Shown piece by piece: positions 6,105-12,956 of a stretch of DNA of 33,693 nucleotides. The stretch is from Woeseia sp. GTDB taxonomy: Bacteria > Pseudomonadota > Gammaproteobacteria > Steroidobacterales > Woeseiaceae. The stretch spans positions 1-33,693 of the forward strand of contig JABDKF010000249.1 of the NCBI GenBank assembly GCA_013003155.1. The letters are read 5' to 3'. The notes beneath the pieces were generated by a model. The model ran no database searches, was not told the DNA's origin, and saw only the letters and a list, made by a program, of their open reading frames with translations. The position numbers and the translations under genes are program-made. Each line of letters opens with the position of its first letter. The stretch's first letter is position 1.

Positions 6105-7859
6105 CTACCAGCGGTATTTAAGTTCGAGAAAAACGCTGCGTTCTGCCATCTGGTAGGGCGCAGCGGTCTGGTAACGGGTATTCAACAGGTTTTCCAGCCG
6201 CGAATGCAATTGCCAGTGCTGCCCCAGTTTAAACTGTCCGGTGACATTCAGCAGCACGTAGCCCGGCAAGCTCTCTGCGATATCCTGACGACGGCTGCTC
6301 GCCAGCATCGACAGGCCCAGCAGGTGGTTGCCGATCTCCCGGGTAACATTGATCGTCAGACTGCGTTCCGCGCGGCGCAAGAGCTTACTGCCATCGGCGG
6401 CATTCTCTGCGCTTTGGGATACAAGATCGGCGCGCAATCTGAACAAGTCGCCGCGGTATGTCCAACCCAACTGACCCCCGCGAATTTTTGCGCGCGCCAG
6501 GTTTTGCAGTGTGAATGAGTTGAAATCAAATTCAATGAGATCGTTGATATCGTTGCTGAAGAGATCGAAGCGCAACAGGTTGCGCGGATTGACCTCGACC
6601 TCTACCCCCAGTTGAATTTCGTCCGCGACCTCAGGCCGCAACGTGGTGTTGCCACCAAATCCGAAACGGTCAGTTGCATCGGGCGCGCGGAATGCGCGTG
6701 CCATGCCTGCGCTCAGCGACCAGGCATCGTTGAGGTCAAATGCGACCTCAGCGTTCCAGGTGAACTCATTGCCAAATGTTTCATGATCGGTATAACGGCC
6801 AGCGAGAAATGCACGGAGCCGGCCGCGGGTAATGCTGTCCTGCAAAAACAGCGCCCGCGTTGCGGTGTCCTCGCTGAAGCCGCTGCCGAAAGATTCTGCC
6901 CGGGCATTCTCTTCCGTGGCATAAATACCGGCGGCCAGGTTGTGACCCGGTAACGATACAGAGTAAAGCCAATCAAGGGCATACCGTCGGGAAGTTACAA
7001 AATCCGGCGACTGGTTCTGGTCGATCTTGTCGATCATATGGCTAAGTAGCAGGCGGCTTTCTGAGCGTTCGCCGAGAGGCGTGGTCACCTCGAGGGCGCT
7101 ACTTTGATTCTGATAATCCTGATCCACCGGCGCCAGGAAAAAGTCGAGATACTCGCTGTTGCCGCGAGCACTCCAATGGCGGAGATTAACAGTCGACCGG
7201 CCAATCTGTCGGCTGCCATAAATGTTGGCGCTAAAATTGTCATAGCCACGTTCGATTTCGCTGTCAGCACGAACTGCATATCCATCCGTATCCTGAACAT
7301 TAAGCGTGACGCCGAGCTCACCGGCGTCGGTAGCTGCGCCAAAACTTGTGTAGGCGGATTGCGTCGAAAAACTTCCGGCGCTGGCACCCGCTTCTGCGTA
7401 GCCACTGCCGGCGCGACGAGTGATGATGTTGATAACGCCGCCAATTGCATCCGTTCCGTACAGTGACGATCGTGCGCCTTTAACTATTTCGATACGCTCG
7501 ATCAGTTCGGGTGAGATGTTTTGCAGTGCTGCACCGCCAATCGTTCCCGGGTTAATGCGTACGCCGTCGATGAGGACCAGCGTGTGGTTGCTTTCGGTGC
7601 CGCGGAGGAAAACTGAGCTCGCCTGACCTGGCCCACCGTTGCGGCCGATGTCGAGACCCGCCTCGAAGCGCAGCAGTTCAGTAACGTCTCTTGCGGCTGC
7701 AAGTTCGATTTGCTCACGGTTAATAATCGTGACCGGTACGATCACGTCCTGCAGCGCAATTTCGTTGCGCGTTGCCGTGACCACGATGACATCGTCGTCC
7801 GCAACTGCGAACACCGGCAGCAGCGCAATGATCAGAAAAAATGTTCGAGTAAAAAGCAT
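6105..7859 (-). CDS. btuB: TonB-dependent vitamin B12 receptor BtuB-like
   Basis: Signal peptide, TonB box (DDVIVVTATR), plug (VFLRGTESNHTLVLIDGVRINPGTIGG…LIERIEIVKGARSSLYGTDAIGGVINIIT), C-terminal …YRW. Preceded by a cobalamin riboswitch. Confidence 0.93.
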   Translation of the reverse strand: MLFTRTFFLIIALLPVFAVADDDVIVVTATRNEIALQDVIVPVTIINREQIELAAARDVTELLRFEAGLDIGRNGGPGQASSVFLRGTESNHTLVLIDGVRINPGTIGGAALQNISPELIERIEIVKGARSSLYGTDAIGGVINIITRRAGSGYAEAGASAGSFSTQSAYTSFGAATDAGELGVTLNVQDTDGYAVRADSEIERGYDNFSANIYGSRQIGRSTVNLRHWSARGNSEYLDFFLAPVDQDYQNQSSALEVTTPLGERSESRLLLSHMIDKIDQNQSPDFVTSRRYALDWLYSVSLPGHNLAAGIYATEENARAESFGSGFSEDTATRALFLQDSITRGRLRAFLAGRYTDHETFGNEFTWNAEVAFDLNDAWSLSAGMARAFRAPDATDRFGFGGNTTLRPEVADEIQLGVEVEVNPRNLLRFDLFSNDINDLIEFDFNSFTLQNLARAKIRGGQLGWTYRGDLFRLRADLVSQSAENAADGSKLLRRAERSLTINVTREIGNHLLGLSMLASSRRQDIAESLPGYVLLNVTGQFKLGQHWQLHSRLENLLNTRYQTAAPYQMAERSVFLELKYRW

Positions 7860-7983
7860 TCCACCTTCCTTCGCATGCCGCCCGCATGCCGTGCCAATCG
7901 ATAGAACGAGAAGCTTGCGGGGAGAGAAGGACGCACAGCAGAAGGCACGTCCGAACAGCCGCCCGCCGCGCCGTTCGTGTGTT

Positions 7984-8197
7984 CATCGGGCCGGTCTCCG
8001 GGCTTACGAGCGGCGCTAAACGCCGGTTCACAGCGCCTTCCCGCGAATTATCGCGCCCGATGGGCACGGGGTCTCGCAGTGGCTCCGGTGTGCGTGTTGC
8101 ACATCGGGGGCTGTGGCTTAACTCGATCACCGTTGCGGGGGCAGCGCCGGATTAAGGAGCAAAAAACACTCCACACCGGCTTCCCGTTCACCCGAAT
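7984..8197 (-). promoter_or_regulatory. Cobalamin (AdoCbl) riboswitch upstream of btuB
   Basis: Minus strand reads …GGGAAGCCGGTG…AATCCGGCGCTGCCCCCGCAACGG…GCCACTG…GGGAAGGCG…CGTAAGCCCGGAGACCGGCC. This contains the conserved B12-box (core GCCACTG…) and the 'GTAAGCCCGGAGACCGGCC' segment. Confidence 0.93.
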
Positions 8198-8324
8198 CAA
8201 TGCCAATCCGGGCTCACCTGATGAGGCGGCCACACTAGGTATAGTGTCCGTCGCTGTCAAGGACGCATCTTGAGTCATGCGGCGGCTACGGCCATAGTGT
8301 CGCTTCAACAAACAGGAGCCATTA

Positions 8325-12516: not shown

Positions 12517-12722
12517 TAAAAAACCCCGCGGTGAACCGCGGGGTCAATCTCTCTTCTTATTATTAGAGAGGTAACTGGTTATTCGGCAAGCAAATACAAA
12601 TTATTATTGGAATTGGATTTCAAACTTATCGTTATTATTATTTTTTATAATTTTTCTTCTGGCGTCTTAGATCCTGTCTGTATTTTTTGCGCTTGCCCTC
12701 CAGTTACGCTTCGCTTGGGCAA
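12517..12722 (-). ncRNA. Candidate sigma-54-dependent small RNA (~205 nt) with CrcZ-like A-rich motifs
   Basis: Minus-strand sigma-54 promoter at 12732-12747 with correct spacing; 5' hairpin CTTGCCC…GGGCAAG (12692-12723) at the predicted start; AAUAAUAA motifs at 12632-12642, 12601-12608 and 12557-12564; intrinsic terminator at 12518-12543. No ATG within the predicted transcript. Confidence 0.62.
12518..12543 (-). terminator. Rho-independent terminator, minus strand
   Basis: Perfect 8-bp stem CCCCGCGG-TTCA-CCGCGGGG followed on the minus strand by TTTTTTATTT. Confidence 0.88.
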
Positions 12723-12731
12723 GTCTTATAA

Positions 12732-12747
12732 AGCAAGAGCTGTGCCA
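12732..12747 (-). promoter_or_regulatory. Putative sigma-54 (RpoN) promoter TGGCAC-N5-TTGCT
   Basis: Minus strand TGGCACagctcTTGCT matches the established consensus TGGCACG-N4-TTGCW, including exact -24 GG / -12 GC spacing. Confidence 0.72.
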
Positions 12748-12798
12748 GCCTCGATAAAACCTTTTAAATTCAATGGTTTAAAAATTAGTCTTGCAGCA

Positions 12799-12823
12799 AA
12801 GCACGCGCTTTTGTAGCGTGCTT
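12799..12823. promoter_or_regulatory. Inverted repeat AAGCACGC-N9-GCGTGCTT, possible upstream activator site for the sigma-54 promoter
   Basis: Perfect 8-bp inverted repeat about 75-100 bp upstream of the predicted minus-strand start, a typical position for a bacterial enhancer-binding protein site. Assignment is inference. Confidence 0.35.
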
Positions 12824-12956
12824 GTAAAAAATTTCGACATGCGAAGTTGGGCAATTCTGCAACAGGTCTCGCGTGCGGTCCGTAACTAATTGAATAATAT
12901 GAATGAATGTTTCTGCCCCCGAACCTGTCGGCCATCCCCGGGGTATGTATTATGTG

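Follow-up and report, generated by a model that had tools for sequence, protein, structure and literature searches.

A predicted small RNA gene of Woeseiaceae with a PrsR-type enhancer, a sigma-54 box and A-A-N tracts

NtrC-type response regulators drive the sigma-54 promoters of the small RNAs GlmY/GlmZ and Qrr. Repeats of the A-A-N type are known to be read by the distal face of Hfq, and class II Hfq sRNAs (e.g. ChiX) combine ARN-type repeats with a U-tail; hfq is widespread in Gammaproteobacteria, and its presence in the hosts considered here is assumed on that ground. In Pseudomonas, the layout of crcZ and crcY comprises an activator site, an IHF-like site, a -24/-12 box and AANAANAA repeats, and the CbrAB system has been described as exclusive to pseudomonads (PMC6296734). 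A second sigma-54 promoter type, formed by a 17-nt motif 1 ending in TTTACA, a spacer and a sigma-54 motif 2, precedes PEP-CTERM genes and a small number of others, with no RNA described among its sites; it was attributed to PrsR, and control of PEP-CTERM proteins by PrsK/PrsR has been a prediction since 2006 (Haft et al. 2006, PMC1569441). RpoN dependence has been shown for one Aquincola PEP-CTERM gene with such an enhancer (PMC9850573).

The locus described here lies in a 33,693-nucleotide stretch of Woeseia sp. DNA, referred to as the window. With CrcZ/CrcY/CrcX of Pseudomonas and Azotobacter it shares a sigma-54 promoter, activator and IHF-type sites, an intrinsic terminator, an intergenic A-rich RNA in which several AANAANAA motifs stand in otherwise poorly conserved sequence, and occasional duplication. 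It differs in that the activator site is of the PrsR and not the CbrB type, the RNA is roughly half as long, Crc was not found, the locus lies between pdxH/amidohydrolase and cobalamin genes, and there is no detectable sequence relation. GlmY/GlmZ and Qrr share the sigma-54 promoter with this sRNA, which differs in its lack of an Rfam match, its enhancer motif and its long A-A-N tracts. ARN-type repeats and a U-tail are shared with class II Hfq sRNAs, whereas the tracts here are longer and repeated (about nine and four triplets) and the promoter is of another class. With the PrsK/PrsR PEP-CTERM regulon the locus has in common motif 1, spacer, motif 2 and PrsR itself (TIGR02915), and PEP-CTERM genes with the same promoters occur in the same genomes; the difference lies in the target, in this case a non-coding RNA.

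The transcription unit and its conservation in Woeseiaceae

On the minus strand, TGGCAC-AGCTC-TTGCT (12747-12732) is the sole exact match to TGGCACNNNNNTTGCW in the window. This -24/-12 element (TGGCACAGCTCTTGCT, 12732-12747), already recognised as an RpoN box in the preliminary description, is intact as TGGCAY-N5-TTGCY in 86/86 distinct loci of the family and recurs in orthologues from three further families (f9, f6 and f8). The predicted sRNA of about 204 nt spans 12518-12721 (minus strand; model R1, E 1.6e-29), starting at 12721 or within a few nt of it, an extent assigned because the conserved block opens at the predicted +1 and closes at the terminator. The latter (12517-12545, minus strand) consists of a stem from 12545 to 12522, followed by Us. 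The unit of about 205 nt has no ATG on the minus strand, and its fold z-score is -5.6 against dinucleotide shuffles. The preliminary description had correctly reported this lack of an ATG, the closing terminator with its U tract and the motifs AAUAAUAAUAA (12642-12632), AAUAAUAA (12608-12601), AAUAAUAAGAAGA (from 12564) and AGAAGAAAAA. The 5' hairpin CTTGCCC...GGGCAAG, which it had treated as an architectural element, turned out to be window-specific, occurring in 1/86 homologues.

A 271-base query was compared by BLAST with 107 genomes of Woeseiaceae (f1), and the sRNA gene was found in 87 of them. This count excludes trivial hits and a promoter-only hit in genome G086 and includes the divergent copy of G001, which was missed by the model, was seen only via its promoter and opens with GUGCCCAAGCGA behind the same promoter. 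In nearly every match, the alignment opens at the TGG of the -24 element or immediately ahead of it (query 20-24) and closes at the terminator (~256). Conservation resumes at the predicted start with UGCCCAAGCGAAGYGUAACUG (12701-12721, minus strand), a 5' end of invariant alignment columns that is a candidate seed or protein site. The order of promoter, motifs and terminator, for which a conservation check had been proposed, is kept in relatives and bounded by the -24 box and the terminator. Inside Woeseiaceae, model R1 gave E values below 1e-28, with only weak matches outside. In one genus (g10, nine genomes), rpoN and the sRNA are both absent.

Fold and occurrence beyond the family

RNAalifold and pair counting recovered a conserved fold consisting of a long-range helix GUAACUG/CAGUUAC, which shows double changes, and further helices, GGAU/AUCC and the covarying terminator stem (helix 5). 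In the long-range helix (helix 2, 97% paired, with changes on both sides), the 3' arm CAGUUAC (12571-12577, minus strand) pairs with 12707-12701. Changes on both sides were seen in 8 of 29 pairs, against 4.0 in shuffles (0/500 shuffles reach 8), and pairing was destroyed when the partner strand was slid as a control. A CUCU..AGAG hairpin stands 3' of CAGUUAC in 85/86 loci, taking the form CUCUCU-AAUAAUAAGA-AGAGAG in the window (12549-12570, minus strand); its A-A-N loop is found in some members only.

Weak model matches outside the family that carry a -24/-12 box, an A-rich body and a terminator were obtained in f9 (L123, L125, L127, L128, L129) and f6 (L124, L131). These loci share their gene neighbourhood with the Woeseiaceae locus: one flank holds glutamyltransferase, pdxH and/or amidohydrolase genes, and the opposite flank genes for a metalloprotease, a BtuD-type ABC ATPase and a cobalamin adenosyltransferase, names that were read from the translations. 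With queries specific to each family, BLAST detected the f9 form in 33/41 genomes and the f6 form in 18/22, and an f8 genome (L348) carries a similar RNA in which AANAANAA occurs eight times, with the same promoter type. Judged by these comparisons, the copies in f9 and f6, both further families of the order, are divergent orthologues. Four further matches (L126, L132, L133, L134) were rejected as homologues, being terminator-only matches that lack a matching sigma-54 box, and were treated as noise.

Several other observations concern these loci. One f9 genome (G150) has two sRNA copies (C79:17227-17475 and C17:1059-1309), each with a PrsR-type site, a state reminiscent of the CrcZ/CrcY duplication. 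The sRNA 5' pattern also matches L143, L155 and L192, from records titled Gemmatimonas UBA2094, Limnohabitans and Betaproteobacteria, which may be mislabelled bins or chance matches. The window contains a cobalamin riboswitch (Rfam RF00174, 80 bits; 7972-8236, minus strand) upstream of a BtuB-like TonB receptor gene (6105-7859), and the cobalamin gene neighbourhood of this riboswitch also adjoins the sRNA in other families.

Because of this comparative evidence (conservation, covariation and synteny), the locus appears to be a real and previously unlisted sRNA gene. That the unit is instead a chance combination of a -24/-12 box and a terminator in a diverging spacer, or the leader of a downstream gene, is refuted, as far as sequence comparison goes, by the conservation, the box in 86/86 loci and the covariation. 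This reading, to which we attach a negligible probability, is also opposed by the closure of the unit by its terminator and by a synteny common to three families despite differing downstream genes.

The upstream activator site and its relation to prsR

The only strongly conserved motif upstream of the sigma-54 box is TGTCG-N7-TTACA (TGTCGAAATTTTTTACA, 12823-12839, minus strand), found in 81/86 f1, 26/30 f9 and 6/7 f6 loci and identical to motif 1 as Haft et al. (2006) defined it for PEP-CTERM genes. In the window the span from GTCG to TTGC is 106 nt; spans are 105-108 in most sRNA loci and 91-115 before PEP-CTERM genes. Across the order, this motif with a sigma-54 box 58-88 nt downstream occurs in 131/248 genomes (reversed control, 0), and the other copies of the promoter pattern precede genes for proteins ending in PEP-CTERM signals. 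The PrsR-site promoters L317-L361 fall into two classes of total span, about 93-95 and about 104-107, roughly one helical turn apart, the sRNA promoters belonging to the long class. Between enhancer and promoter lies an IHF-like site (TAAACCATTGAAT, 12768-12780, minus strand), present as YAAN4TTGW in 58/86 family loci (reversed pattern, 0) and weak in other families (3/30 and 2/7). The same interval holds a near-perfect palindrome, AAGCACGC-N9-GCGTGCTT (~12798-12822), in the window genome only; it was ruled out as an activator site, being unconserved in homologues.

Since the upstream activator site, missed in the first reading, is the PrsR motif, the sRNA would belong to a regulon different from that of CrcZ. 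The preliminary description had suggested an analogue or divergent homologue of CrcZ. The parts of that proposal that hold are a sigma-54-type intergenic sRNA and selected AANAANAA repeats outside Pseudomonas; homology, Crc and CbrB control are not supported. The promoter layout and repeats are indeed those of crcZ/crcY (PMC6296734), as expected of a divergent orthologue acting as a CbrB-activated Hfq/Crc decoy in carbon catabolite repression. Against such an orthologue, a search of the window with Rfam at gathering thresholds yielded only the cobalamin riboswitch, and the proposed comparison with the CrcZ covariance model gave no match even at E<=10, either for the window copy or for a copy from a second family; a permissive search of the window-copy region returned weak, terminator-driven hits. 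The CbrB subsites TGTTAC/GTAACA are not conserved upstream, where TGTCG-N7-TTACA is the only activator-type motif, the gene neighbourhood is another one, and CbrAB is regarded as exclusive to pseudomonads (PMC6296734). Crc was not found in a complete genome of the same genus, whose nucleases are of the NApe/ExoIII type with the catalytic Asp; its best EEP protein scored 316 bits to the Neisseria exonuclease vs 263 to Crc and, being nearer the former and retaining the catalytic Asp, was rejected as Crc. CrcZ homology was rejected on the Rfam, CbrB-site and Crc tests, and the orthologue reading is largely refuted and in our judgement very improbable.

PrsR was detected above its cut-off (502.6 bits) both in the window's own assembly (704.7 bits) and in the complete genome of the same genus (717.5 bits). 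In Woeseiaceae, the sRNA occurs in 74/77 PrsR-positive vs 13/30 PrsR-negative genomes (Fisher p 4e-9, phylogeny ignored), counting as positive G086, in which a contig breaks inside prsR; omission of the rpoN-less genus g10 leaves p 1.4e-4, phylogeny again ignored. In f6, the PrsR site and sigma-54 box are present in 5/5 PrsR-positive genomes and both absent from 5/5 PrsR-negative ones (loci L254, L259, L260, L263, L266), in which the A-rich body and terminator remain. This pattern suggests that the promoter has been replaced in prsR-less f6 genomes.

In the complete genome of the same genus, prsR is convergent with a gene for a GlrR-like response regulator (L366:11736-14634), and the two genes adjoin in many relatives. 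This neighbour could cross-act at the sRNA promoter, a point against the PrsR reading, and it might itself be the activator, as in a GlmY-like case. Two MAGs (G028 and G029, 91-95% complete) encode GlrR and keep the sRNA and its site while PrsR is undetected, exceptions that may reflect loss, incompleteness or another activator. Activation by the GlrR-like protein is nevertheless unlikely, given that the site and the PEP-CTERM motif are the same, that this motif follows PrsR and that f6 sites and boxes vanish together with PrsR. Also, L302 falls under the GlrR cut-off (634 vs 763 bits), and Rfam gave no GlmY/GlmZ match for the window copy.

A-A-N tracts and the proposed mode of action

Two A-A-N tracts occupy the body of the RNA in the window, tract 1 at 12625-12658 and tract 2 (AAUAAUAA) at 12601-12608 (both minus strand). 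In alignment A1 they comprise about nine and then four triplets, with AA at 92-100% and N free. Tract 1 corresponds to columns 71-105 (AA at 93-100% in almost every triplet, N free) and includes a 7-nt window-specific insertion in the window copy; tract 2 corresponds to columns 115-127. Sites matching AANAANAA number 7.1 per RNA in f1 vs 0.8 in dinucleotide shuffles (about 9-fold), 8.8 vs 0.8 in f9 and 7 vs 0.9 in f6, with at least two AANAANAA blocks in every member tested from the three families. Together, the fixed AA with its free N and this excess show selection on the A-A-N triplet pattern, which is what a ligand of the Hfq distal face would be expected to display. That the pattern is selected, instead of an exact sequence, points to recognition by a protein. 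The features of an Hfq ligand, distal-face A-R-N/A-A-N repeats and a terminator U-tail, are present.

On balance we favour, as fairly probable, a trans-acting, Hfq-binding sRNA of the PrsK/PrsR-RpoN (PEP-CTERM/exopolysaccharide) regulon that probably acts by occupying Hfq. Comparative support covers the PrsR site, the sigma-54 box, an RNA of about 200 nt whose fold is conserved, its two to four A-A-N tracts and the terminator; we infer that PrsR activates the promoter and that the RNA binds Hfq and acts mainly by occupying it. Phosphorylated PrsR would bind at about -100, aided by bending at the IHF-like site, and would open the sigma-54 promoter when the matrix programme of the cell is switched on. 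The A-A-N tracts would then engage the Hfq distal face, with the U-tail holding Hfq, and other Hfq-dependent messages would be released or destabilised. Such occupation, most likely the main mode, may represent CrcZ-like action on Hfq alone, without Crc. The conserved unpaired 5' end and the GCCAGAAG core (12656-12663, minus strand) might in addition pair with one or a few mRNAs.

The unpaired non-A segments are conserved more strongly than a pure sponge needs, which is a point against this explanation. The chief rival is a conventional base-pairing sRNA of the PrsR regulon, in which the 5' end or the GCCAGAAG core would pair with target mRNAs and the A-A-N tracts would only load the Hfq distal face, as in ChiX; we consider it possible, if somewhat doubtful. 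It is favoured by the unpaired 5' end UGCCCAAGCGAA and ACGCCAGAAGAA, nearly invariant across 62 sequences, by the conservation of the 5' end within f9 as well, and by a GCCAGAAG core common to f1 (83/86 members) and f9 (29/30). Yet the core is missing from f6, and the 5' end differs strongly between families, whereas A-A-N tracts, promoter and position persist. As for the PEP-CTERM leaders, AANAANAA was found in 0/25, so that they were rejected as direct Hfq-type co-targets; no direct link from the sRNA to those mRNAs was seen.

In the literature searched (subscription papers being outside its scope), no sRNA was found in the PEP-CTERM/PrsR regulon or in Woeseia, nor any described regulatory RNA for Woeseiaceae, which are common marine-sediment bacteria. 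We tentatively propose that the PrsK/PrsR PEP-CTERM/exopolysaccharide programme might include a conserved arm that acts after transcription, in the form of a dedicated sponge RNA for Hfq. This RNA would be convergent with CrcZ, wired to matrix formation and not to carbon source, and would persist with a replaced promoter after loss of prsR. If true, the CrcZ strategy of a sigma-54 promoter and an A-A-N decoy would have arisen a second time, independently. A conserved sRNA under a PrsR-type enhancer makes the PrsK/PrsR regulon directly testable, and it suggests that matrix formation may reset Hfq-dependent regulation in these bacteria.
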